Source: a virus
IMG/VR virus record: IMGVR_UViG_3300021425_000193
Location: 1 to 23,766 of that record
Direction: 5' to 3' (one strand)
Length of the DNA stretch: 23,766 nucleotides
Positions 1 through 21,620 of this stretch are shown one piece after another. Numbering within the stretch: the stretch's first letter is position 1; every line of letters starts with the position of its first letter. The position numbers and the translations under genes are program-made. The notes under the pieces are model-generated. The model saw only the letters and a program-made list of their open reading frames with translations. It was not told the DNA's origin and did not search any database.

Positions 1-161
1 AGCCTCTTCTAAAGCCCTGCTACCTGACAGGAATGAACACGACATACAATGGAGAGACTACATCATTTCACCATGATGGTAAGTTTACTCAAACAACTAT
101 TTCTATGTCTTTCCAAGAAGAGCACAACCTTGTCAGAAAAGATATTGAGGAAGGATTCTAA
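1..161 (+). CDS. Baseplate tail-tube cap protein, gp48-like (C-terminal end only)
   Basis: An open frame enters from the left edge and stops at the TAA at 159-161, giving about 52 residues that end in MSFQEEHNLVRKDIEEGF. The order of elements (a Cys-containing beta strand, an aromatic loop with FHHDG, then a strand of the MSFQE type followed by a charged helix) is the usual C-terminus of T4 gp48/gp54-type tube-initiation proteins, which cap the baseplate hub and start tail-tube polymerisation. The stop overlaps the start of the next gene by one base (TAATG), and the next gene is gp53, as expected for a baseplate operon. gp48 rather than gp54 is preferred by this neighbour, but the fragment is too short to separate them firmly. 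The start lies outside the window. Confidence 0.6.
   Translation, partial: PLLKPCYLTGMNTTYNGETTSFHHDGKFTQTTISMSFQEEHNLVRKDIEEGF
147..154 (+). promoter_or_regulatory. Strong ribosome binding site for gp53
   Basis: GAGGAAGG lies six bases before the ATG at 161, inside the end of the preceding gene. It fixes the gp53 start at the TAATG overlap. Confidence 0.7.
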
Positions 162-1366
162 TGGCTTACTTTGAAAACTTTCCACTGATCGACTACTACT
201 TTGGTAACAAGGTAAAGCCTGTAAAGTTTACAGACATGAACGTCTATGTCGATCTAATCGATCAGATTAAAGACGATGTTGGTTCTTATACGTACTACGA
301 TATCATGGACGGTGACCGACCGGATCAGGTATCGCAGTATCTCTACGATACTCCTGAATTCTACTGGACATTCTACTTAATGAATGATAGCATCAGGCTT
401 CACGGCTGGCCGCTCAGCGATCAACAGGTAACTGAGAAGGCTAAAAAGGATTATCCAAATACCGTCATCATCACGAATAATAACTTAAGTGATGTGTTTA
501 AAAGGGGCACGGAGGTTCACGGCAGAACTTCTGGTGCAAGAGGAACCGTAGTTACAAAGAGACTTGATCTTAACCAGCTTATCATATCTAAGACTGATAG
601 CCTGTCGTTCATTGAAGGTGAGGTTCTTGAAGATGTGAGTACCGCTGCAGAAGTTATCATCGGTTCTGTGGTTCTGGAATATAATGCTGTACATCACATT
701 CTAAACTCTCAAGGCGACTATGTGGATGCAAACTCAAGCTTTGCACCTTCTATCTCATCAAATACAAAGTACGTCCTGTATGATACTACAGCCGAAGACT
801 ACAATCTTGATACTATATACGATACCATGACTCTTGCAAACGCTGATGCAGAAGGCGATGAAGTTGGAAGAGAAGTTACTTTCTACACCATCATCAATAA
901 TGACGGAGAAGATACAAGCAACACTCCAAGTGGGTTCTATTATTATAATCCTGATACAAGTCAATATGAGCTCTATAACAACGTCAGTACCTATGTATCA
1001 AGCGCGACTGACTATGTAACTGATGATTATGTTCCTGAAGGATTCATTGGTTACGATGACACTCAAACGTTTTCTACTGAAGCTGCGGCTCAGAACTATT
1101 ACAGCACTCAGCTTCAGTCGTACATCAAGGATAACTTTAATACACTGACACCAGTACTCTTTGAGCCTATAACTTTCTTAGAAAGGGTCAAGGATCAGAA
1201 CGATGCAAAGCTTCAGCTTAAAGTCATTAAGCCAGACGTGATTAATCAAGTCATCAATTCATATAACCAGGTTGTTTTAGAAAGTCAGGATGTGGCTCAA
1301 GAAAACATTGTCACTAGAGCTCAGCAGGGACTAGGCACATACACTGCCACTGCAGTAAGTGGATAA
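161..1366 (+). CDS. gp53: Baseplate wedge protein gp53, enlarged
   Basis: gp53 joins baseplate wedges to one another during T4 baseplate assembly. The first ~100 residues carry the family pattern: a FPLIDYYFG start, then DGDRPDQVSQYLYDTPEFYW and FYLMNDSIRLHGWPLS (the 'G-RPD-VS-LY-YYW-F-LIN' signature). The C-terminal ~80 residues (FEPITFLERVKDQND, then LKVIKPDVINQVINSYNQVV) fit the family's closing segment. T4 gp53 is about 196 residues; this one is 401. The extra length sits in the middle: residues ~114-160 form a GTEVHGRTSGARGTVV type beta module that recurs in gp8 and in the 1717-residue protein, and residues ~250-285 contain a Tyr-rich stretch (SGFYYYNPDTSQYELY). It overlaps the preceding gene by one base and ends three bases before the hub gene. 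Confidence 0.85.
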   Translation: MAYFENFPLIDYYFGNKVKPVKFTDMNVYVDLIDQIKDDVGSYTYYDIMDGDRPDQVSQYLYDTPEFYWTFYLMNDSIRLHGWPLSDQQVTEKAKKDYPNTVIITNNNLSDVFKRGTEVHGRTSGARGTVVTKRLDLNQLIISKTDSLSFIEGEVLEDVSTAAEVIIGSVVLEYNAVHHILNSQGDYVDANSSFAPSISSNTKYVLYDTTAEDYNLDTIYDTMTLANADAEGDEVGREVTFYTIINNDGEDTSNTPSGFYYYNPDTSQYELYNNVSTYVSSATDYVTDDYVPEGFIGYDDTQTFSTEAAAQNYYSTQLQSYIKDNFNTLTPVLFEPITFLERVKDQNDAKLQLKVIKPDVINQVINSYNQVVLESQDVAQENIVTRAQQGLGTYTATAVSG

Positions 1367-1369
1367 CAG

Positions 1370-2704
1370 ATGGCCACTGGATTATACAGCTCACCTTATG
1401 ACTATGGTAATCAGAAGATTGAGATCAGGTCTCCGGCCGGAAGGTTTGAGACTATCGACATCTCTCTTCAGGTAGTAGAGTTCTCTTTCTTTGAAAATGT
1501 TGCAACGCCATATGTGACAGGCAATATTGTCATATCTGACTCAAGTAACATGTACAATCATGTTAACTTCATTGGTCAGGAAGCAATAGACTTTATAATC
1601 AACGATGTTAATGATAAAACTTTCTTAAAGAAAAGCTTTGTTATCACTGGTGTTGAAAGGTACAAGAAGGGAAATGACTCTGTTGCATATATTGTACTGA
1701 ACTTCACTGAGGAGCACCAGCTTACATCTGAAATAACTAGGTTTAGTAAGACCTATCAAGGTAAGATTGAAACCATCATCTCTAACATCATATCTGAAAA
1801 TTTAAACAAGCAGGTTGAAGTTGAGTCTTCTTTTCAAAATGCAATCAGGTACCTTGCGCCTTATACTATGAGTCCTATTGAAATGAGTAAGATGCTGGCT
1901 GGTAGGATCACCACGGCTAAAGGATCGCCGTTCTATCTCTACTCATCGCTAGCAGAAGAATCCCTGAGGCTCCAGTCTCTTGAAAGCATGCTGGCTGATT
2001 CTCTTTATCCTTCATTAGAATTTATGTACATATCACCTACGTCTATACACGAGTCAGATCTTGATACTTTAGGAACTATCCTTCTTGCGATGTCAATGTC
2101 TAAGAATGAAAATGTTATTGGATTGATGAGAAACAACGTGTTTGGATCTCAGCACTTGTGGTTAGATACTAACAAGACGATATCAACTGAACTTCGCCAT
2201 AGGTTCGATCAGAGTGTCAATGACTTGCCTAGGATCAACGGTACAACTAACTACGATTTCGACTTTGCGGTGAACTCAAAGGCATATCACCAGGGCGTTT
2301 CTTCAATGTGCTCATACGTCACAACAACGGGTCTGTTTGATAATGTCAACAGCCTGCATGAAGAAACGGTATCTGATAATCACCAGAAGAAGGTTCAGTC
2401 CAAGTCCTTTAAATCACTGATCGGAAAGACTCAGATGGATGTGACTATTCCCGGTTATCACTTTATGAAGTCTCCAACTCGCATTCTTGGAAAGATGATC
2501 AGGATGTATGTTCCTAAGAACATCGTTCCTACAGATGAGGCAAATGTCAGCAGGAATAGCCTGGCAGATAAGAAGCTGACCGGAAAATATCTAGTGTTTG
2601 CTGCGAGACATGTATTTAAGAATGGTAAATATCACGTGACTACTAACGTGAGTAAGTATGATAATCTAAACAATCTTTCAAAAGAGAGGTTGAATGTAGT
2701 GTAA
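1370..2704 (+). CDS. gp27: Baseplate central hub protein, gp27-like
   Basis: 444 residues with the layout of T4 gp27 (391 residues), the trimeric hub that sits between the tail tube and gp5. The N-terminal domain has alternating strands (FETIDISLQVVEFSFFENV, then TPYVTGNIVISDSSNMYNHV) like tube/hub beta-barrels. It is followed by a strand with FVITGVERYKKG, a helical part (KIETIISNIISENLNKQVEV), a segment PFYLYSSLAEESLRL, and a second barrel near the C-terminus (GYHFMKSPTRILGKMIRMYV, then GKYLVFAARHVFKNGKYHVT). The assignment rests on this fold-like pattern and on position directly before the gp5 OB-fold gene, as 27 and 5 interact in T4. Its stop overlaps the next ATG by one base (TAATG at 2702-2706). 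Primary sequence similarity to T4 gp27 is low by eye. Confidence 0.72.
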   Translation: MATGLYSSPYDYGNQKIEIRSPAGRFETIDISLQVVEFSFFENVATPYVTGNIVISDSSNMYNHVNFIGQEAIDFIINDVNDKTFLKKSFVITGVERYKKGNDSVAYIVLNFTEEHQLTSEITRFSKTYQGKIETIISNIISENLNKQVEVESSFQNAIRYLAPYTMSPIEMSKMLAGRITTAKGSPFYLYSSLAEESLRLQSLESMLADSLYPSLEFMYISPTSIHESDLDTLGTILLAMSMSKNENVIGLMRNNVFGSQHLWLDTNKTISTELRHRFDQSVNDLPRINGTTNYDFDFAVNSKAYHQGVSSMCSYVTTTGLFDNVNSLHEETVSDNHQKKVQSKSFKSLIGKTQMDVTIPGYHFMKSPTRILGKMIRMYVPKNIVPTDEANVSRNSLADKKLTGKYLVFAARHVFKNGKYHVTTNVSKYDNLNNLSKERLNVV

Positions 2705-3252
2705 TGAAGAACTTTTATGGTGACAGCACAAGATGGTTCATAGGAATCGTTGAGGATAACATGAATGATCCTCTTCAGTTGGGAAGAGTCAGGGTCAGGG
2801 CATTTGGGATTCACTCTCCTTTTCTATCTGACATTGCAACAGAAGATCTTCCATGGGCTACAGTGATGGTGCCTGCTACAGAAGGTGGCATATCTGGAGT
2901 AGGAAGAACACCAACTGGAATCGAGCAAGGTGCCTGGGTGTTTGGTGTATTTTTAGATGGAGAAGCATCTCAGAACCCGATGGTGATGGGAACCCTGCCA
3001 AAGATCGAGCTTCCTCAGGAAAATATCAATCCACTTCCTACTACACCTAATGCAGGTCACGGGGATGTTAACTACTCGCAGCCATTGAGAGGGAACAGCA
3101 ACGCTGAAAAGACATTCAACGCTGCATTGGATAATGGATTCAGTGATGTGGTTGCAGCCGCTATCGTCGGTACGCTGGCCACTGCCTCTAACACTGAGCT
3201 CAACCCTCAACTAGAAACTTTTATTGAATCTGCTATTGAAGGACTTGTGTAA
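2704..3252 (+). CDS. gp5: gp5-type OB-fold hub protein with the front half of a degenerate tail-lysozyme domain
   Basis: Residues 1-~100 match the N-terminal OB-fold of T4 gp5/VgrG proteins: RWFIGIVEDNMNDPLQLGRV, FGIHS, EDLPWATVMVP, GAWVFGVFLDGEASQNPMVM and a GTLP end. This domain plugs the gp27 trimer and anchors the spike. T4 gp5 (575 residues) continues into lysozyme and a beta-helix; here the protein ends at residue 182. After a Pro/Asn linker (104-133), residues ~134-182 resemble the first half of phage tail-lysozyme domains: VVAAAIVGTLATAS followed by ELNP aligns with the family's 'AAGIVGNLxxES..xNP', with the catalytic Glu position occupied by Ala (residue 161). The rest of that domain seems to lie in the next gene, whose ATG overlaps this stop. 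The OB assignment is firm; the lysozyme part is inference. Confidence 0.8.
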   Translation: MKNFYGDSTRWFIGIVEDNMNDPLQLGRVRVRAFGIHSPFLSDIATEDLPWATVMVPATEGGISGVGRTPTGIEQGAWVFGVFLDGEASQNPMVMGTLPKIELPQENINPLPTTPNAGHGDVNYSQPLRGNSNAEKTFNAALDNGFSDVVAAAIVGTLATASNTELNPQLETFIESAIEGLV

Positions 3253-3551
3253 TGGCTAAGACACAAAAATTTGGAATTGCTGGATGGTCCGGAGAAAGAC
3301 TTAAAGATTTCTTCGAGTTCTGTTCAACTAATGTTCTTGATCCATATAAGATTGAGACTCAGATACAATACGTTCTATATGAGTTAAAGACTAAACCAGA
3401 GCTGAACTCAGGTAAGCTGGCCGCAGCCAAGTCAGTGGAAGAGGCAGTTGACATCTTTACTAAGGAATACTTAAAAGTCACTGACTCTAAAGAGATAGCT
3501 AAGACAAAGAAGTCATACTCATATGATGCGTTTGAAAGGTTCGGCCAGTAA
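3252..3551 (+). CDS. Small hub-associated protein resembling the back half of a phage tail-lysozyme domain
   Basis: 99 residues, soluble, Lys-rich, no signal or membrane segment. Residues 8-24 (FGIAGWSGERLKDFFEFC, from F7) correspond to the 'GIAQWTG-R-..L..FA' segment of phage tail lysozymes. Residues ~35-73 (TQIQYVLYELKTKPELNSG, then AAAKSVEEAVDIFTKEYL) correspond to the 'EAQL-YLLYELK...L-A-SVEEAA-.F...Y' helices. The front half of such a domain, with the catalytic Glu position, is absent here but appears at the end of the preceding protein. The two genes join at a TAATG (3250-3254) that falls where the family has a loop. No slippery heptamer is visible near the junction, so coupled translation of two chains is more likely than frameshifting. 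It is probably structural rather than an active hydrolase by itself. Confidence 0.6.
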   Translation: MAKTQKFGIAGWSGERLKDFFEFCSTNVLDPYKIETQIQYVLYELKTKPELNSGKLAAAKSVEEAVDIFTKEYLKVTDSKEIAKTKKSYSYDAFERFGQ

Positions 3552-4834
3552 TGCTCTTGAATGTACTTTCCATTGGATCAAAGGTCGCTTCTCTTGTAGG
3601 TGCAGGAGGAATCTCTTCTTTACTTAGCAATGTAGTTAACATTGCAGGTCTGGCAAAGAGCCAGTTTGAAAAACTCAGGAACTCTCCGCTTGATGCTTTA
3701 AGAGGTATCAATAAGCTCGGAGTAAACGTTGAGTTTGTTTCAGATGAAAGGTATGACAGTAACGGTGAGCTTCAAAGAAGGTTCAGTGTTGGTCTTGTCG
3801 GAGACAACGTAGAGAACTTTCAATCTTTATTTAAGAATCCTACAGTAGAAGGTGCAGCCGACTTCTATAGAAGCACCTTAGGTGGAGCCAACTTAAACCG
3901 GACTATCACGGCAGTTACAACGGACGGGGCCAAGAGCGCAGTATCAAAAGTTATTGCAAGAGATCCAGACCAGAACTATACGACAAAAGTATTTACGGAT
4001 AAGCTCGTGGACTTTTCAGAAAGGCTTTATGATGGAGTCTCTGACGGCTCGACTAAGATCGGTCTTCTTAATCAAGCTGCGGCTGAGATCGCTAAGGCGG
4101 AAGAGGTGATTGAAGACACTATATCCAAAGGCGAGTCTCTGACTAACAGCATCTTAGGCGATGCAACTTCTACTGAGAACCTAAGTGATAAGATTGAGCT
4201 CGATCCCAAGTCCGATGTCTTTGGTCTTTCAAGCATCGAGACTGTTGATATGAAGAACCTAAGCAGCAAGACTATCCTTAAGACGTATGAAGAGATGGAA
4301 GCTGCAATAAGATCCAGCACTCGTGAAATCACTGAAGTCGTTGTGCACCATACGGATACCTTTGAAGATCAGCCTGTAGACTATGACGATGTATATAAGT
4401 GGCACAGCGCCAGGAACTTTTCAGATGTAGGTTATCACTTCCTCATCCTTCGAAGTGGAGACTTACAGGTCGCACGTCCTATATCCAAAAAAGGTGCGCA
4501 CTGCCTTAAAGGGCATAATAACTACTCTATAGGAATCGCATTTGTAGGCGGAAGAGTAGGATCATCTAAGAACGGTGGATCAAAGAGAAGCTCAACCACC
4601 TTTAGACCTGAGCAGTGGAACACGTACAAGGCATTCATGAGAGCCTTCTATTCAGTCCATCCAGGCGGGCAGGCGTGGGGCCACAACGATATTGATCCTG
4701 AAAGAAGATCTGATCCAAACTTTGATGTTGTAGCATATGTCGAAAACAGCTTTGGTAAAGAAAACGTACAGACCCCTGAACAGGCTAGATCTACAGGCGG
4801 TCTATCAATCGATGAGATTATAGAGAGACAGTAA
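3551..4834 (+). CDS. Hub-region protein with C-terminal AmpD/PGRP-type N-acetylmuramoyl-L-alanine amidase
   Basis: 427 residues. Residues ~1-45 are apolar and probably helical (VLSIGSKVASLVGAGGISSL), followed by ~200 residues I do not recognise. Residues ~258-412 form an Amidase_2-type domain that would cut the MurNAc-L-Ala bond of peptidoglycan. They carry EVVVHHTDT (H266/H267), GYHFLILRSGDLQVARPISK, GAHCLKGHNNYSIGIAFVGG, FRPEQWNTYKAFMRAF and GHNDIDPERRSDPNFD. The zinc ligands H266 or H267, H378 and D388 are present, and H378 to D388 is ten residues, the same spacing as H154-D164 of AmpD. The Lys two before the Asp in AmpD is Arg386 here. The gene sits between the gp5 OB gene and the spike gene with one-base overlaps on both sides, so the enzyme is likely carried on the tail tip to breach the cell wall. 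Confidence 0.85.
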   Translation: MLLNVLSIGSKVASLVGAGGISSLLSNVVNIAGLAKSQFEKLRNSPLDALRGINKLGVNVEFVSDERYDSNGELQRRFSVGLVGDNVENFQSLFKNPTVEGAADFYRSTLGGANLNRTITAVTTDGAKSAVSKVIARDPDQNYTTKVFTDKLVDFSERLYDGVSDGSTKIGLLNQAAAEIAKAEEVIEDTISKGESLTNSILGDATSTENLSDKIELDPKSDVFGLSSIETVDMKNLSSKTILKTYEEMEAAIRSSTREITEVVVHHTDTFEDQPVDYDDVYKWHSARNFSDVGYHFLILRSGDLQVARPISKKGAHCLKGHNNYSIGIAFVGGRVGSSKNGGSKRSSTTFRPEQWNTYKAFMRAFYSVHPGGQAWGHNDIDPERRSDPNFDVVAYVENSFGKENVQTPEQARSTGGLSIDEIIERQ

Positions 4835-6570
4835 TGGCTGGTACTATTGCATATACAGAGATCTTAGGATCCGGCAGCTTTAAAGATAAATCCGGCGGAT
4901 TTACTAAAGTTCGACTGGCCGATGGAACTATTCAGACATTTGAAGGTGACCGAGCCTTTAGAAACAATAATCCGGGAAACCTGACTGGTACTGCAAGAGG
5001 TGCAGAGAATCTTGGCGCCATAGGTGTAGACTATGGTGGTAACTATATCTTCTCATCTATGCAGAACGGCTTTAATGCGCAGAGGCAGTTCGTACTGAGA
5101 GAGCAAGGAGACAAGACTCTTGCCGACATGGTTGCGACATATGCTCCTCCTGGTGCAGACAACGATCCGTTTGACACCAACAAGACTTATCCTGAGTACT
5201 TAAAGGGTAAAGGGTTTGACCTCAATACTAAAGTAAAAGATCTTCCTATCGCAGAACAGGAAAGACTCCTGGCCGTAATGATTCAAAAAGAATCTAAGCT
5301 GTCTGATGAGATCCTCGCACTGGTCAACGTTGGAGACAGGTCTAACTTAATATCAGGCCAGCAGAGAGCCGAAGCTGAAGAAGGTGAAGACGGTGTCAGC
5401 TCACTTTCAGACGATGGAATCTCTGGTACAACCGAGCAGAGAAACGATCAGTCCTTAGCGCCTGAGACTGTAGGATTCAAAGATCCGTTTAAAAACTTTC
5501 CTAGGCAGGACTACTACAATGAGGCCACAACCAACAAGGCAGCCAGAGGCCAGTGGGAACCTAAGCTGCAGATGGGTGGTGGAAGCTATAAGGGCGGATC
5601 TTTGTTTCCTACCGAAGCTAATCCAGAATACCCCTACAATAAAGTAACTGAGACATCGAGCGGCCACAGGATTGAACTGGATGACACTCCAGGGAAAGAG
5701 CGTGTTACGATGGTGCATACTGTAGGATCTGGCATGGAGTTTCATGCTGACGGTATGGTTGTATTGAATGCACATGATAAGATGGTGCAGGTTGTAGGAG
5801 ATGACTTTACTGTGTATGTCAGAGGTAACGGTGATGTTACCTTTGAAGGAAACCTGAACATGCATGTTACAGGTGACTATAAGCTCAAGGTGGATAAGAA
5901 CTTTATCTTAGAGGTAGACGGCAAGTATATTCAGACTATCGGTCAAGGAAAGAACGAGACTGTAGAGGCAGATAAGATCAGTACTGTTGTAGGTAACCTT
6001 TCCGAGTCTATTACTAAGAACTCTACAAGGATGAGTTTAGGTGGTGCAAATGTGATCACTAAAGGTAACTTCAACCTGTGGACAGACGGTAATGCAGAGT
6101 ATGGAACTTCAGGCTCAACTCACCTTTCTGCTCAGACTGAGATTGATATCGCAACACTTGACTTTAATATGACATCTGAGTACATGGCTCTCGTTGCGCC
6201 TGACGGAAAGGTTGGAGGAGAGAACATTACAGTCACCGGTGATACCTTTTCAGGTCAGACATATCTCGGTGATGTTTTCTCTGGAACTGCAAAGGCTGCA
6301 TACTCAGCGGCCATATGGCCAGATGTTAGTGTCTTAGATCCTGGGGATCTTGCTAAACTGGCCGCAGCCAGCCTGGATATAGTGACTGATACATTAGGAA
6401 ACTCCAATAAGGGTATCTTAAAGATCGATGTAGATCCGGAAGAAAAGATCCTGCAGAACTTAGATCTGAGGGAGATGAGCACTGTAGGTGAAAACACATC
6501 CACAACATCTAAGCCTAGTAAGTACAGCTTAGAAAATACTCTAAACACTATTAACAACCTGGTGCCATAA
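4834..6570 (+). CDS. Tail spike: NPGN peptidoglycan-type domain fused to a gp5/VgrG-like beta-helix
   Basis: 578 residues. Residues ~35-165 hold AFRNNNPGNL (41-50), GNYIFSSMQNGFNAQRQFVL and YAPPGADND, the pattern of a phage structural domain usually described as lysozyme- or transglycosylase-like. I cannot confirm catalytic residues by eye. An acidic linker (~178-215) follows. Residues ~270-410 are the C-terminal gp5/VgrG element: ETSSGHRIELDDTPGKERV (273 on), HTVGSGMEFHADGMVVLNAH, then short strands of the V-G-D-N type (VRGNGDVTFEGNLNMHVTGD, KLKVDKNFILEVDGKYIQTI). These would form the triple-stranded needle that pierces the outer membrane. T4 gp5 carries OB, lysozyme and helix in one chain and is cut after assembly; here the OB part is a separate gene three ORFs upstream. 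The C-terminal ~150 residues are low-complexity and unassigned. Confidence 0.8.
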   Translation: MAGTIAYTEILGSGSFKDKSGGFTKVRLADGTIQTFEGDRAFRNNNPGNLTGTARGAENLGAIGVDYGGNYIFSSMQNGFNAQRQFVLREQGDKTLADMVATYAPPGADNDPFDTNKTYPEYLKGKGFDLNTKVKDLPIAEQERLLAVMIQKESKLSDEILALVNVGDRSNLISGQQRAEAEEGEDGVSSLSDDGISGTTEQRNDQSLAPETVGFKDPFKNFPRQDYYNEATTNKAARGQWEPKLQMGGGSYKGGSLFPTEANPEYPYNKVTETSSGHRIELDDTPGKERVTMVHTVGSGMEFHADGMVVLNAHDKMVQVVGDDFTVYVRGNGDVTFEGNLNMHVTGDYKLKVDKNFILEVDGKYIQTIGQGKNETVEADKISTVVGNLSESITKNSTRMSLGGANVITKGNFNLWTDGNAEYGTSGSTHLSAQTEIDIATLDFNMTSEYMALVAPDGKVGGENITVTGDTFSGQTYLGDVFSGTAKAAYSAAIWPDVSVLDPGDLAKLAAASLDIVTDTLGNSNKGILKIDVDPEEKILQNLDLREMSTVGENTSTTSKPSKYSLENTLNTINNLVP

Positions 6571-7445: not shown

Positions 7446-7895
7446 ATGGCAGTAAGAAGAAGCTTTTCGGTAGAAGACACTAATCTCAATAACACTTCGG
7501 TTATTGTTGCGTCTAGACCTGAAAACTACTCTGACATCGACTTGACTCTGGACACTAAACCTTCCGGAGACATCTTCAAGAAGACAGACGCTGCCTCAGT
7601 CAAGCAGTCTATTAAGAATATCCTGCTGACTAATCACGGTGAAAAGCCTTATGATTACTTTTTTGGAGCAAACTTAGCATCCTATCTGTTTGAACTCAAT
7701 GATCCTAGTATCGTGAGAGAGATGGAAAAGGACATTAAGTTCGCTGTAGAGAACTATGAACCGAGAGCTGAGATTCTAGAGATCCAAGTGATCAACAACA
7801 TTGATGTAAATGATGTAAGAGTTGTTGTAAAGTTTAAAATTATTTCTACAGATGAGGTTGTTGTTCTTACGACTTCCCTTACAAGGATCAAATAA
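7446..7895 (+). CDS. gp25: Baseplate wedge protein gp25
   Basis: 149 residues, close to T4 gp25 (132) and to the GPW/gp25 family, whose lysozyme-like-sized fold binds the gp6 dimer and helps initiate sheath assembly. Family marks are DLTLDTKPSGDIFKKTDAAS ('F..n..tGDi....d..aVkqSI.NLLLT..GErpf'), SVKQSIKNILLTNHGEKPYD, FFGANLASYLFELNDP and a C-terminal strand pair ending VVLTTSLTRIK; the ILLTNHGEKPYDYFFG stretch is the core signature. It is the first gene after the late promoter at 7414 and is followed two bases later by gp6. A weak AAGG at 7433-7436 is the only visible ribosome site. Confidence 0.92.
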   Translation: MAVRRSFSVEDTNLNNTSVIVASRPENYSDIDLTLDTKPSGDIFKKTDAASVKQSIKNILLTNHGEKPYDYFFGANLASYLFELNDPSIVREMEKDIKFAVENYEPRAEILEIQVINNIDVNDVRVVVKFKIISTDEVVVLTTSLTRIK

Positions 7896-7897
7896 CA

Positions 7898-9772
7898 ATG
7901 GCACTACCAGCAAAGCAGACCATACATACTTCAAGCTTAGACTTTGATAACATCAAGGCGAGCATCAAGGAGTACTTAAACGGTCAGACAGAGTTTCAAG
8001 ATTACGACTTTGAAGGGTCTGGTCTCTCTGTACTACTTGATGTACTGGCCTTCAACACTCATCAGAACGCGCTGCTGGCCAACTTTGGATTGAATGAGTC
8101 TTTTCTGACAACTGCTCAGACACGATCAAGCATGATCAATCACGCCCTAAACTTAGGATACGTACCTAGATCTAAGTCTGGCGCAAAGGCTACGGTGAAC
8201 CTCTCGGTCAATCTTGCAGGCGTGTCTCCTAAACCAGCAACCATCACTATTCCAGAATTTACTTCTTTCACATCCGTAGTTGATGGTGTAACGTATACCT
8301 TCTACACTCTAGATGAGTACATCGGATATGACAGGACCGGCACAGGAATCTATACCTTTGAGGTCAAGTCCGGAGATAAGAACATCGTTATCTCTGAAGG
8401 CCAACTTAAGACTAAGACGTTCAAGTGTAATGACGCTGCAGAGAGACAGGTGTATGTCATTCCTGACAAGAACTTAGACATCTCTACACTCAGCGTAACG
8501 GTGTTCGACTCCCCTACATCCGAAGAGTTCGAGATCTATGAGAGAAACAACGACATTAAAGAGTACAACGAAGATACCAAGCTGTTCTTACCGGTAGAGA
8601 CATATAACGGGTTCTATGAGATCAGCTTTGGTGACGGACAAGCAACGGGACGAGCTCCAGTTCCAGGTAACGTTATCAAGGCACAATACCTTGCATCTAA
8701 CGGAGTCGCTGCTAATACTGCAAACGTGTTCAGCCCAACAGATCAGATTGAAATCAACTCTCAGTCCTACAACATTATCGTGACTACAGTATCTAGAGCA
8801 GGTCTAGGTGCAGAGAAAGAATCAGTGGAGTCTATCAGGAACAACGCCCCGTTAAATCTTCTGACTTCATCCAGATTGGTTACTTCTGGAGATTATAGAA
8901 CTATCATTCAGTCTCGTATTCCTGGAATCAAGTCTGTAAACGCCTGGGGTGGAGAGGATAATGTTCCGGCAAAGTACGGTAAGGTTCTCGTGTCTCTCAT
9001 CTTTGAAGATGATGTTGATGCAACTCAGAAGGCTTTGATTCAAAACACTATTACTGAAGACATTACAGACAACCTTTCAATCATCTCAGTTGGGATGGAG
9101 TTTGTGGACCCGACATTTACATACTTAAACACTATCACTGAAGTTAAGTATGACGAGTCCTTGACAAACCGAACTCCTCAAAGTATTGAGAACTTAGTAA
9201 AGACTAATGTATCGACATTCTTTAATAATAACTTAGGTAAGTTTAATGATGTCTTTAGAAAGTCAAAGCTGACTACTTCTATTGACAACACTGACAATGC
9301 TATCTTATCTTCAAACGTATCGATTGAGATGGAGTCAAGATTTAATCCTGTCATTAATCCTAATACTAATCAAATCGTTTCTTCGGATTACGAGATCTCA
9401 TTTGTAAATCAGATCTCACAACCGACTTCTTCTGCTCCTGTAGTTAAGAGTGACTTCTTTACATTTAAGGGTGTACTCTGTAATATTCAGAACAAGCTTG
9501 GATCAACTAAGCTGCAGATCTTTGATCAAGAAGGCAAGATCCGACAGGACAATGTTGGCGAGTATGTACCTGATTCCGGTAAAGTGAAGCTCAAAGGCTT
9601 TACTCCAGTGTCTATCTCAAGTGGAAACTCTTTCTTAAAGATTAAAGCTACTCCAAAAAATGATTCTACTATCAAGCCTTTAAGAAACAACGTTGTTACT
9701 TTAGGTGAAAACTTAGTTACTGCAGTGGCTGATGTAGATGCTGCTAACTCTACAGTAGGTACAACTGACTAA
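7898..9772 (+). CDS. gp6: Baseplate wedge protein gp6 (baseplate J-like)
   Basis: 624 residues, similar to T4 gp6 (660), which dimerises to form the continuous inner ring of the baseplate. The N-terminal part has the family signature: SLDFDNIKASIKEYLN, FQDYDFEGSGLSVLLDVLAF, NTHQNALLANFGLNESFLTT, AQTRSSMINHALNLGYVPRS. A middle beta domain has YEISFGDGQATGRAPVPGNV ('FGDG..G..p..G..V...YL'), and the J-like helical segment follows (GAEKESVESIRNNAP, LVTSGDYRTIIQSRIPGIKS, VNAWGGEDN). The C-terminal third is Asn/Ser-rich and variable. It follows gp25 by two bases and overlaps the gp7-like gene by one base (TAATG), so gp25, gp6 and the next protein are probably made together. Confidence 0.92.
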   Translation: MALPAKQTIHTSSLDFDNIKASIKEYLNGQTEFQDYDFEGSGLSVLLDVLAFNTHQNALLANFGLNESFLTTAQTRSSMINHALNLGYVPRSKSGAKATVNLSVNLAGVSPKPATITIPEFTSFTSVVDGVTYTFYTLDEYIGYDRTGTGIYTFEVKSGDKNIVISEGQLKTKTFKCNDAAERQVYVIPDKNLDISTLSVTVFDSPTSEEFEIYERNNDIKEYNEDTKLFLPVETYNGFYEISFGDGQATGRAPVPGNVIKAQYLASNGVAANTANVFSPTDQIEINSQSYNIIVTTVSRAGLGAEKESVESIRNNAPLNLLTSSRLVTSGDYRTIIQSRIPGIKSVNAWGGEDNVPAKYGKVLVSLIFEDDVDATQKALIQNTITEDITDNLSIISVGMEFVDPTFTYLNTITEVKYDESLTNRTPQSIENLVKTNVSTFFNNNLGKFNDVFRKSKLTTSIDNTDNAILSSNVSIEMESRFNPVINPNTNQIVSSDYEISFVNQISQPTSSAPVVKSDFFTFKGVLCNIQNKLGSTKLQIFDQEGKIRQDNVGEYVPDSGKVKLKGFTPVSISSGNSFLKIKATPKNDSTIKPLRNNVVTLGENLVTAVADVDAANSTVGTTD

Positions 9773-16466: not shown

Positions 16467-19400
16467 ATGACTGACTTTACAAACACGACATTTCAAAACA
16501 CTTATAAGGATGATTTTGTCGATTCTGATAACTATCACCGCATCTTATTCAATTCTGGTAGGACTCTTCAGGCGCGTGAACTTACTCAGCTCCAGACAAT
16601 CATTCAGACCGAAGTGTCCAGGTTCGGGGATCATGTATTTAAAGACGGCTCCTTAGTCATTCCTGGAGGCCTTTCCCTCGATACAATTGAGTTTGTAAAG
16701 CTTGATGGTAACCCTGACATCTCTGCCTTTGCTGTAGGCGACGTCATCACTGAAGATGTCAGCGGCGTAAAGGCCAAGATCTTACGAATCGAGCAGTACG
16801 TCAGCTCTTCTGAACCTGCAACCTTTTACATCACGTATACAGATGCAAACGGCCAGGTACCTACTACATCTCCTATCAGGTTCACTCCATACAACTCCGG
16901 TACGGGTATCGGCGTACTCAGAAAGTCCGGAGCATCTGTAAATGTTCAGGTGACAAACACTACAGAAGATCCTGCTGTAGGAGCTGGAACGGCCGTATCG
17001 GTTGCAACAGGAAGCTTCTATGCTCTTAAGCACTTTGTCCAGTGCAATCCTCAGACAGTCATGGTTGCTAAGTACAGCGCAACTCCTACAGTCGATATCG
17101 GGTTCAAAGTCACTGAAAGCATAGTCACCGCAGAAGATGAGTCTGCACTCTACGATAATCAGAACGTTCTTCCTAATGAGACTGCACCAGGTGCTGACAG
17201 GTACAAGATCAATCTTGAACTCACTACATCTGATGCTATTGACTCAGATGAAAACTTTATCTACTTGAACCGATTAGTAGAAGGTGAGTTCTTAAAAGAG
17301 ATCGACAGAAGCACATACAATATTATCGGAGAAGAGTCTGCACTTCGTACATTTGAAGAGTCCGGCGACTATATCGTTGAGAGCTTAGACTTAGACTTTA
17401 CTCCTGATTCAGACGCAGGCTTAGTAGCTGAGCTTGGACCAGGCATTGCATACATCAAAGGTTATAGATTTAACCAGCAGTCGACTCTTCCTATTAAAGT
17501 AAACAAGGCAAGAGACTTCCAAGAGATTGAGAACGATACTGTATCTGCGTTTTTTGGAAACTACCTGAACATCGATGGAACTACTATCAAGGGAGTGCCG
17601 AACATCGATGTGTTTGAAGTTCAGACTCTTTATGATAACGTTAACTTAGGCGGCGCCAATATCGGTACTGCCAGGGTACGTCAGGTTGAGCAGAACGGTG
17701 CAGACTATAAGTACTACCTGTTTGATGTTAACATTAGTCCTGGATACAAGTTCACTGCAGCTAAGAGTATCGGAACTAGCTCTACAAGCTACGGCAACAT
17801 CATTACAGAGAACAATGCAGCTGTACTTAAAGAGGCTGATGAGAATAACCTGTTCTTTGATCTTCCTAGAATTCGCCCCAAGTCATTTGACGATATTCAG
17901 TTTGTCGTCCAGCGTAGAATCTCTGGTCTGACAACCGACGGCAGTGGTATTGAAACTATCGATGTAGATGTTTCTGGATCTGAAGCATTCACTAACACTA
18001 CTACCTGGATCGCAGCATTTGACTCTGATGGTGGGCACGTTGCACCTGTAATCACCCTTCAGCAGGTAACAAACGCAAATGACCGAGCACAGCTGGACTT
18101 TGGAGCTACATATGCCAACAAGAACTTTGAGGTTCTGGTTGCAGTTCAGAAGTCTTATACTCCGGCAAGTGCAGTTATCAGATCGAAGACTATCACAAAC
18201 ACTACAGTGACTACTACAATTGATTCTGATGGAAGCGGTATCCTCTATATTCCTCTGTCTAAAGCAGACATTTACAATGTAACTAGAGTCACTGACTCAG
18301 ACTCAGATGGAGTAGACCTGTCCGGATTCTTTACACTAGATAATGGACAGAGAGATAACTTCTACGGTGAGGGTAGACTCATCCTCAACACTGGAGTTAC
18401 AGCTCCATCCGGAAACGTATTCGTTAGATACGACTACTTTGCACATGGGACAGGCCACTTCTTTGGTCCTACATCCTACACTGGATTGAACCTGGACAGT
18501 ATTCCTACATACACCACAAAGCTCGGTGAAGAAGTTGAATTAAGAAACGTATTAGACTTTAGACCGAGAAAAGGTGACGGAGACACTGAGTACTCCACCG
18601 GCACCGCGATTGTCAATGAGATTCCTACAAATACTAGCCTGATCACTTCAGATATCGAGTACTATCTTCCTAGAAGAGACATCTTGGTTCTTACTGCAAA
18701 CAATGAAGTCGAGTACATTGAAGGAACCAGCTCTTTTAATCCAGTGTACCCAACTACACCTAATGATGCAATGAAGATCTATGAGATTGATCTTGAAGCT
18801 TACACTGATGATGAAGACGATGTAGACTTCTCTTCCATCGGTAACATCAGGTACACTATGGCAGATATCGCTAGACTTGAAGACAGGATTGAAAGGGTAG
18901 AAGAGACTACTACTCTCAGCCTTCTTGAGTTAAATGCAGCAAACATTGAAGTTCTCGATGACAGTGGGAACAACCGGTTTAAGAACGGGTTCTTTGCTGA
19001 TAACTTTGAGACTAATGATTTTGTAGATATCAGCACCGGCGAGTTCTTTGCTTCCTTTGATGAAGATCAGGATTTGATCCAGCCTCTGTTTACGAGTAAG
19101 AGTGCAAACCTCTTTGTAGACTCCGGAGCATCTTCTGGAGTGACTGTAGCCGGAGAGCTTGTCATGCTTTCCTATAACGACTCCGCAGTCATCTCTCAGC
19201 TGGTAGCATCTGAGACTGAAAACGTCAATCCATTCGCAATCATCTCTCATGTAGGTTCTATTGAGATGGTGCCTTCGGTTGACAACTGGACTGAAGTCAA
19301 TGAGGTCAGAAACGGCCGGTTGATCGTTCAGCCTAGAAGAGTAGCTCAAAGAGTTCAGTTAAGAAGAAGAGCAATTGCTAGTATTGACTGGCGCAGAACT

Positions 19401-21620
19401 AGAAATGGAAGGCTTGTTGCTAGAAGACGTATTCGTCGTAGACTTCCATTCTCTATTAGAGCTATCATTTTAAGAAACAGAAGAAATGCAAGAAGGATTC
19501 GTCCTTTACCAGAGGTGAACCAACAGTGGAACGTAACTTCAACTACAAGAAGAACTCAAGCCGGTACCACTATCACCACTGTAAGAGAAAGAACTGAGCT
19601 TTCTGACTTTATCAGACCTAGACTAGTATTCTTCCGTGCACGAGGCCTGCGTCCACGCAGCAGACACTTCGCTTTCTTTGATGGTACTTCTGTGACCAAC
19701 TTTGTTCGCCAAGAGTCATCTGTAAACAGAAACTCTATTAGAAGGTTGGTTGGTGGACGCTTCCGCGGATCTATAAATCACCCTGATGGAGACACTGTAC
19801 TTACAAGTGACAGCGCAGGAGAACTTATCGGATCGTTCTTTATTCCTGCAAACAGGTTCCAGACCGGCGACAGGGAGTTCAAGCTGATTGATATCAGTGT
19901 AGATGATGAAGATGCTGCTCTTTCTCATGCCAGCAGCACTTACAGTGCCAATGGTACAGTGATTACTAGAGAGATCAGCACTCGATTCATTCCTCGTCCA
20001 AGACCAAGAAGACGTCGTAGAAGATCCAGAAGAAGAGATCCTCTGGCGCAATCGTTCCAGCTTCCAATGGAAACGGGTGGATTCATCAGCAAGATCGACG
20101 TATTCTTCAAGACACGTCCGACTGAGAACATTCCGATTAGAATGCAAATTCGTCCTATGATTGCCGGTGTTCCTTCTGAGGAGTTCCTTGCTGAGACTAC
20201 AGTGTTTAGAGATGAAGTCCAGATCCCTGGAGATCTGGATGACATGACGACAATCGCATCTAGTCCTACTAGCTTCCCATTCGAAGAGCCTGTGTACCTG
20301 CAGCCCGAAACTGAGTACTGCTTTGTCCTCTTAGCAGATACTAATGATTATAATGTCTACGTTGCAAAGGCAGGCGACTTTGAGATCGGTACTACTGAAA
20401 GAAGAATCAGGCGTCAACCTACCCTCGGATCTATGTTCTTATCACAGAACTCTAGAACCTGGACACCTGACCAGTCCAGAGACCTGATGTTTGAGATCTA
20501 TGCAGCATCCTTTAGCACTGGTACCACTGGCACTGCATACTTAAGAAATGATGACATTGAACCGGATCTTCTTGGTAACAACCCAATCTTTATCGATTCA
20601 GGCGAGACAGATGTATTCATCAGGCACCCTAACAGTGGATTGATGAAAGGTGACACAGTTGTTATCGATGGATTAGATTCCAGCGGAGACTACGGAGGAA
20701 TTACTGGGACCTCTATCCTTGGCAACAGGACAGTTCAGCGTGTAGACGGATACGGAATCCTGATCACTGCAGATTCTGCTGCAACTTCATCCACCGTCAC
20801 TGGAGGAGACTCAGTCACTGCTACTCAAAACATGATGTTTGACAGGGTTGTACCTAACATCGAAACGTTTATTCGACCAGAAGTATCCTTGACCCTGTCA
20901 GCTAACTTTATCAACGGTGTATCGCTGTCTAGGGCAAATGAAGTGACTCAGACAGTAGGATACTCTGCGTCTACTACAAACCACATCTTTGACGGAAACG
21001 AGCCTATCATCCTTGAAGCTCCATCGATGGTTGCCGGCAGAACCCTAGAGGTAACTAACTTAGGTGCAAATAGATCTGCCAATATAACTGCAAGCTTCAG
21101 CACTACTAACAAGTGGCTGTCTCCAGTCATCGATATGCAGACGGCTGAGTTAGGCCTATTCAACAATATCATTGATGACCAAGTGGACTCAGCGGGGCTG
21201 GAAACGGCCCTGACCAATGCTCCAGTTAGCTACGTTGCGGAAACAGATCCTGTTGACGGGACTGCTCTTGCTAAGTATGTTTCTTCAAACATTAATCTTG
21301 AGGAGCCAGCGGTAGGGCTTAAGATCTTCATCGGTGCAAACAGACCTTCTGGCTCTAATATCGATGTTTACTACAAGCTGGTATCTGCAGGTGAAGACAC
21401 TGCTATCGAAGATATCAATTGGGTATACATCAGTGAAGAGAGTAATAATCCTACAGATGATGATCCATCGGTCTACAGAGAGTATGAGTACCTGATCGGC
21501 GGAAACACTGGAACTCTTGATCCATTCTCTACCTTCAAGATCAAGGTAGTGTTTAGATCTGGAAATACATCTAAGGTCCCAAGACTTAGAGATATCAGGG
21601 CAATCGCTTTAGGAACATAA
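16467..21620 (+). CDS. Giant baseplate/fibre-attachment protein (DUF4815-like) with arginine-rich inserts
   Basis: 1717 residues, the largest protein in the window. The N-terminus (DNYHRILFNSGRTLQARELT, QLQTIIQTEVSRFGDHVFKD, GSLVIPGG) is the signature of DUF4815-type structural proteins of marine T4-like phages. They follow gp8 and take the place of T4 gp9/gp10 at the baseplate periphery. Residues ~86-115 repeat the small beta module of gp53. The body is beta-rich (~120-830), then a probable coiled coil (RLEDRIERVEETTTLSLLEL). Residues 948-1014 hold 25 Arg in 67 residues and no Lys; residues 1177-1190 hold 11 Arg in 14. Between them is the conserved-looking RGLRPRSRHFAFFDGTSVTN. After the second cluster, DPLAQSFQLPMETGGFISKI opens the C-terminal domains, ending SKVPRLRDIRAIALGT. 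Its ribosome site AAGG (16456-16459) overlaps the gp8 stop. Confidence 0.82.
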   Translation: MTDFTNTTFQNTYKDDFVDSDNYHRILFNSGRTLQARELTQLQTIIQTEVSRFGDHVFKDGSLVIPGGLSLDTIEFVKLDGNPDISAFAVGDVITEDVSGVKAKILRIEQYVSSSEPATFYITYTDANGQVPTTSPIRFTPYNSGTGIGVLRKSGASVNVQVTNTTEDPAVGAGTAVSVATGSFYALKHFVQCNPQTVMVAKYSATPTVDIGFKVTESIVTAEDESALYDNQNVLPNETAPGADRYKINLELTTSDAIDSDENFIYLNRLVEGEFLKEIDRSTYNIIGEESALRTFEESGDYIVESLDLDFTPDSDAGLVAELGPGIAYIKGYRFNQQSTLPIKVNKARDFQEIENDTVSAFFGNYLNIDGTTIKGVPNIDVFEVQTLYDNVNLGGANIGTARVRQVEQNGADYKYYLFDVNISPGYKFTAAKSIGTSSTSYGNIITENNAAVLKEADENNLFFDLPRIRPKSFDDIQFVVQRRISGLTTDGSGIETIDVDVSGSEAFTNTTTWIAAFDSDGGHVAPVITLQQVTNANDRAQLDFGATYANKNFEVLVAVQKSYTPASAVIRSKTITNTTVTTTIDSDGSGILYIPLSKADIYNVTRVTDSDSDGVDLSGFFTLDNGQRDNFYGEGRLILNTGVTAPSGNVFVRYDYFAHGTGHFFGPTSYTGLNLDSIPTYTTKLGEEVELRNVLDFRPRKGDGDTEYSTGTAIVNEIPTNTSLITSDIEYYLPRRDILVLTANNEVEYIEGTSSFNPVYPTTPNDAMKIYEIDLEAYTDDEDDVDFSSIGNIRYTMADIARLEDRIERVEETTTLSLLELNAANIEVLDDSGNNRFKNGFFADNFETNDFVDISTGEFFASFDEDQDLIQPLFTSKSANLFVDSGASSGVTVAGELVMLSYNDSAVISQLVASETENVNPFAIISHVGSIEMVPSVDNWTEVNEVRNGRLIVQPRRVAQRVQLRRRAIASIDWRRTRNGRLVARRRIRRRLPFSIRAIILRNRRNARRIRPLPEVNQQWNVTSTTRRTQAGTTITTVRERTELSDFIRPRLVFFRARGLRPRSRHFAFFDGTSVTNFVRQESSVNRNSIRRLVGGRFRGSINHPDGDTVLTSDSAGELIGSFFIPANRFQTGDREFKLIDISVDDEDAALSHASSTYSANGTVITREISTRFIPRPRPRRRRRRSRRRDPLAQSFQLPMETGGFISKIDVFFKTRPTENIPIRMQIRPMIAGVPSEEFLAETTVFRDEVQIPGDLDDMTTIASSPTSFPFEEPVYLQPETEYCFVLLADTNDYNVYVAKAGDFEIGTTERRIRRQPTLGSMFLSQNSRTWTPDQSRDLMFEIYAASFSTGTTGTAYLRNDDIEPDLLGNNPIFIDSGETDVFIRHPNSGLMKGDTVVIDGLDSSGDYGGITGTSILGNRTVQRVDGYGILITADSAATSSTVTGGDSVTATQNMMFDRVVPNIETFIRPEVSLTLSANFINGVSLSRANEVTQTVGYSASTTNHIFDGNEPIILEAPSMVAGRTLEVTNLGANRSANITASFSTTNKWLSPVIDMQTAELGLFNNIIDDQVDSAGLETALTNAPVSYVAETDPVDGTALAKYVSSNINLEEPAVGLKIFIGANRPSGSNIDVYYKLVSAGEDTAIEDINWVYISEESNNPTDDDPSVYREYEYLIGGNTGTLDPFSTFKIKVVFRSGNTSKVPRLRDIRAIALGT

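Follow-up and report, generated by a model that had tools for sequence, protein, structure and literature searches.

Phage T4 gp5 is synthesized as one chain and is then cut between its lysozyme and its spike, leaving two associated pieces; its lysozyme has the T4L-type fold. We analyzed a DNA sequence of 23,766 nucleotides (IMG/VR record IMGVR_UViG_3300021425_000193; hereafter the window), which comes from an uncultured tailed phage, a T4-like virus of bacteria, and forms part of a T4-type baseplate operon. It resembles the T4 gp5 system in that an OB domain follows gp27, a lysozyme-type module lies behind it, and a beta-helix spike is encoded in the same operon. In contrast to T4 gp5, the break in the window lies within the lysozyme domain and coincides with a gene boundary, and the spike has a gene of its own, which also encodes a further hydrolase-like domain.

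The lysozyme domain itself is likened to a different enzyme, the N-terminal lysozyme of phi29 gp13 (Pfam Phage_lysozyme2, PF18013), with which it shares a fold as judged by profile matches and by the predicted structure of a natural fusion (see below). It differs from phi29 gp13 in being made of two chains instead of one, in having lost the catalytic Glu, the Gln of GIAQW and the YERP motif, and in belonging to a T4-type hub. Gp5 of Caulobacter phage Cr30 (AGS81101.1) likewise combines an OB domain, a Phage_lysozyme2-like domain and a beta-helix, but there the domains form one chain that retains both Glu and Gln, and its C-terminal extension looks peptidase-like by eye. In Anabaena phage A-1(L), the endoglucanase and peptidase domains of the hub protein gp15 have been reported as lytic and lie beside a lysozyme-like domain (PMC10966104). 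The hubs of the window and of A-1(L) are alike in that further wall-cutting domains are stacked with one of lysozyme-like type, whereas gp15 carries all its domains in one chain and has another hub architecture (PMC10966104). The short gene that follows gp5 in phage C48C1 contains, by eye, no lysozyme half, and our search of the open-licence literature turned up no split gp5 lysozyme.

Organization of the baseplate operon

The coordinates of the features discussed here are collected in Table 1. The gp5-like protein encoded directly after gp27 contains an OB domain at residues ~1–110 (PF06714, E 1.3e-15). OB domain, lysozyme and beta-helix, which in a T4-type gp5 form one polypeptide, are spread over the genes starting at 2704, 3252 and 4834. 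The spike gene matches phrog_430 and phrog_27932, and PF22178 with an E-value of 8.7e-5 that lies under the cut-off of that family. The open reading frames of the OB protein and the 99-residue protein overlap by one base in the sequence TAATG. An identical overlap is found at 2704, 3551, 4834 and 6570, joining the genes from gp27 through the spike.

Table 1 Features of the window and of related loci (coordinates refer to the window unless a locus is named)
Feature	Position	Strand	Remarks
gp53-like gene	161–1366		
gp27-like hub protein	1370–2704	+	phrog_350; immediately 5′ of the gp5 OB gene
gp5 N-terminal part, 182 aa: OB domain and start of Phage_lysozyme2	2704–3252	+	
Ala161, codon GCC	3184–3186	+	Catalytic Glu column; Glu in 18/18 active-looking relatives
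Shine-Dalgarno-like AAGGA	3239–3243	+	Precedes the second-half ATG by 8 bases
99-aa protein: remainder of the Phage_lysozyme2 domain	3252–3551	+	PF18013 positions 48–129, E 1.3e-8
Hub amidase: unknown N-terminal part and Amidase_2	3551–4834	+	PF01510, E 4.6e-12
NNPGN domain (residues ~28–176) fused to gp5 beta-helix (spike)	4834–6570	+	
gp25	7446–7895		
gp6	7898–9772		
Free-standing Phage_lysozyme2-like protein between gp5 OB and amidase	L129 578–976; L130 536–943; L131 5858–6265		

A lysozyme domain spread over two adjacent genes

The original prediction was that a tail-lysozyme fold is divided between the end of the OB protein and the 99-residue protein. Consistent with this, the two proteins match consecutive parts of PF18013, a profile of 140 positions with a gathering cut-off of 28.2 bits. 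The 99-residue protein by itself exceeds this cut-off with 35.6 bits. Residues 133–169 of the OB protein match positions 2–36 (E 0.0064), and since this first half scores weakly alone (17.1 bits, under the Pfam cut-off, and 10.0 bits against the second profile described below), its assignment leans mainly on the related loci L003, L006 and L088, which have the same segment. Concatenation of the two proteins, the check proposed with the prediction, gave a single match that runs across the junction from position 2 to 129 of 140, with 57.9 bits and an E-value of 1.7e-15. We also built an independent profile of 144 positions solely from single-chain relatives with an active-looking lysozyme, by which we mean that the motifs are intact in the sequence. 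Against this profile the concatenation scored 60.2 bits over positions 7–141, junction included; 4,000 shuffles reached 9.8 bits at best. Sequence searches with the 99-residue protein returned no match among cultured phages and none in the PDB, and a DNA search with the junction returned no match in phages.

The related locus L006 encodes the same domain in one intact chain of 270 residues, which matches PF18013 at positions 2–133 with 68.4 bits and is 75% identical to the window in the gp5 part. In its AlphaFold model, the lysozyme helices on either side of the junction are predicted with moderate confidence (block-mean pLDDT ~71–90), and residues 162–176, corresponding to the site of the break in the split phages, form a loop with a pLDDT below 50. 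Foldseek matched this model to the lysozyme domain of phi29 gp13 (3csr; probability 1.00, E 3.7e-3, TM 0.56 by target), as well as to phi29 gp13 3csq and, in the OB part, to T4 gp5. The lysozyme fold is therefore recognized in a predicted model of the natural fusion rather than of the window pair itself. The break had been placed in a loop, at the TAATG overlap; the low-confidence loop of L006 agrees with the former, but TAATG is the usual junction in this operon, so that the overlap does not single out the lysozyme break.

The linker DNA of L006 that codes for SKEVSAG (~5505–5525) contains a Shine-Dalgarno-like string, TAAGGA, where the split relatives start their second gene; this could be left over from re-fusion or could have arisen by chance.

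The break is maintained in several lineages

An identical break is present in L003–005 (three contigs with 2–6 base differences in 10.5 kb), L088–090 and L010, and several contigs with 77% protein identity share it. Because the frame is offset only slightly within a domain that otherwise continues, and because the fused L006 exists, one might take the break for a sequencing error or for a frameshift, either recent or programmed, and suppose that a single protein is made, but we regard this reading as highly improbable. Sequencing error was ruled out because the break is common to several contigs. Programmed frameshifting was ruled out because every split lineage starts its second half at a separate ATG and because the frame offset varies, being +2 in the window and L003 and +1 in L088 and L010, which speaks against a conserved frameshift. 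Also against a single product are the linker, which is expanded in the core split forms relative to L006 and the active-looking relatives, and a 5-base Shine-Dalgarno core ahead of the second ATG in the window and L003; a match of at least 5 bases precedes 22 of the 456 ATGs in the window. L088–089 have a 4-base match at a long spacing of 13 bases, and L010 has a poor match only.

Both halves are under purifying selection. Between L088 and L089, which differ by few substitutions, dN/dS was ~0.09 for the OB domain, ~0.14 for the N-terminal half and ~0.10 for the C-terminal half. Between the window and L003, the C-terminal half is the better conserved, with 21 of 99 residues differing compared with 18 of 52 in the N-terminal half. 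Furthermore, the module can stand free: in L129–131, an OB protein of 118 residues is followed by a whole but shrunken lysozyme-like protein of 132–135 residues (up to 33 bits against PF18013), an intact amidase and the NNPGN domain. These two observations would suit a 99-residue protein that has left the hub and acts alone, for instance as a chaperone, a regulator or a Spackle-like inhibitor, with the tail helices of gp5 as remnants. We consider such a departure unlikely, as the N-terminal half is kept in all core split lineages with its hydrophobic helices, and the gene order from gp5 to the amidase is constant.

Loss of catalytic residues

To define the expected motifs, we used the 18 single-chain, active-looking relatives (L014, L108–123 and Caulobacter phage Cr30), several of which are near-duplicate loci. 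In all 18, GNLxxES has its Glu and GIAQW its Gln and Trp, and all have ERP except Cr30, which reads ERA, and one truncated locus. In the window, GTLATAS of the OB protein aligns with GNLxxES and places Ala161 in the catalytic Glu column, as originally proposed. The 99-residue protein reads AGW in place of the AQW of GIAQW, with Gly11 (codon 3282–3284) replacing Gln, and YERP reads YLK, with LKV in place of ERP. The lysozyme domain of the window is thus probably inactive, as judged from its motifs, and the case is firmer than first argued, since the Gln of GIAQW and ERP have gone along with the Glu.

The Gln of GIAQW and ERP are lost in every member of the window clade. The Glu column is more variable: the sister locus L003, whose break matches that of the window, retains Glu although Gln and ERP are gone; L006, which is fused, and L088, which is split, have Gln in place of Glu; and L010 has Asp by eye, although the aligner leaves this column gapped. 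The free-standing proteins of L129–131 keep Glu and are missing the whole GIAQW hairpin. As L003 is split with Glu and L006 is fused with Gln, loss of the Glu and splitting are separate events, and we dismissed the suggestion that they are coupled.

Some relatives may be active, since L003 and L129–131 retain Glu. Together with the purifying selection on both halves, this retention could also suggest that the two chains of the window form a working lysozyme that uses different catalytic residues. This seems improbable to us, given the replacement of all three motif elements in the window, the absence of the hairpin from L129–131, and the presence of two other hydrolase-like modules in the adjoining genes.

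Putative wall-cutting modules beside the lysozyme domain

The amidase encoded next to the 99-residue protein has its three zinc ligands, His, His and Asp, intact (VVHHT, GHND and RRSD). These are kept in the window, L003, L006, L088 and L129–131, and are lost where the lysozyme looks active (L014 and L109–L123), with one His remaining in L114-type loci. The NNPGN domain shows a related distribution: it occurs only in the clade with a decayed lysozyme, and the spike is without it where the lysozyme looks active. NNPGN domain and intact amidase ligands occur together in the window, L003, L006 and L088. In L007 and L010, both lysozyme and amidase have decayed, the latter with its ligands lost, and the NNPGN domain is kept. 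That lysozyme and amidase decay in complementary fashion amounts to approximately one transition on the tree; we take the pattern as suggestive and not as statistically independent evidence.

In T7-like phages, relatives of the NNPGN domain form the N-terminal part of internal virion protein D (“with endolysin domain”), and the domain also occurs in a gene with an endolysin annotation. This occurrence fits a virion-borne wall-cutting enzyme. AlphaFold was of low confidence over the motif, Foldseek returned no homologue, and no Pfam family or fold was recognized for this domain. In the window, this domain of T7-like internal virion proteins is fused to a T4-type gp5 beta-helix spike.

Evolution of the split domain

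The domain takes three forms in the decayed clade: fused, internally split and detached as a whole. Every relative whose lysozyme looks active has it in a single chain. In the best tree inferred from gp27, OB and spike, in which some nodes are weak (support 56–76), parsimony counts four changes of connectivity, and an alternative placement of L006 reduces these to three. A single ancestral split with L006 as a basal fused form was marginally disfavored (AU p 0.055).

Taking these results together, we think it likely that the two genes of the window encode two pieces of a decayed tail-lysozyme domain, now a dead two-chain piece of the hub, and that wall cutting has moved to its neighbors. The OB protein would supply the first two helices and the 99-residue protein the remainder, both being translated side by side from one translationally coupled operon. 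In the hub, next to gp27 and the spike, the pieces would most likely come together as a single helical domain. This paired domain would no longer cut peptidoglycan and might act as a structural filler or docking surface, with wall cutting most likely passed to the amidase and/or to the NNPGN domain on the beta-helix spike.

More generally, we propose, with about even expectation of being right, that baseplate hubs exchange their wall-cutting modules through complementary decay. After take-over by a new hydrolase (the NNPGN domain on the spike, either alone or along with the amidase), the old lysozyme would stay as a dead scaffold whose chain continuity is dispensable, so that it is repeatedly fused, split within the fold or detached and yet assembles non-covalently. 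The loci offer a natural series of one enzyme domain of a well-understood molecular machine, from active-looking and fused through decayed and fused to decayed and split inside or decayed and detached. Such a series makes it testable whether a dead enzyme domain persists solely for its structural role, and in what way a machine exchanges one cutting tool for another; it would illustrate how such machines can swap a blade while the old one stays as a building block.

Other features of the locus

Two further proteins of the window are notable. The gp53-like protein has ~400 residues, and its match to gp53 is confined to the first 100. In its relatives (L088 1056–2693; L131 2385–4154), the inserted part varies and the protein reaches up to 589 residues. 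The other is a DUF4815 protein of 1717 residues (16467–21620), which contains very Arg-rich stretches around residues 955–1200, with up to 23 Arg per 60 residues (for example, RPRPRRRRRRSRRR); these look odd for a fibre-type phage protein.
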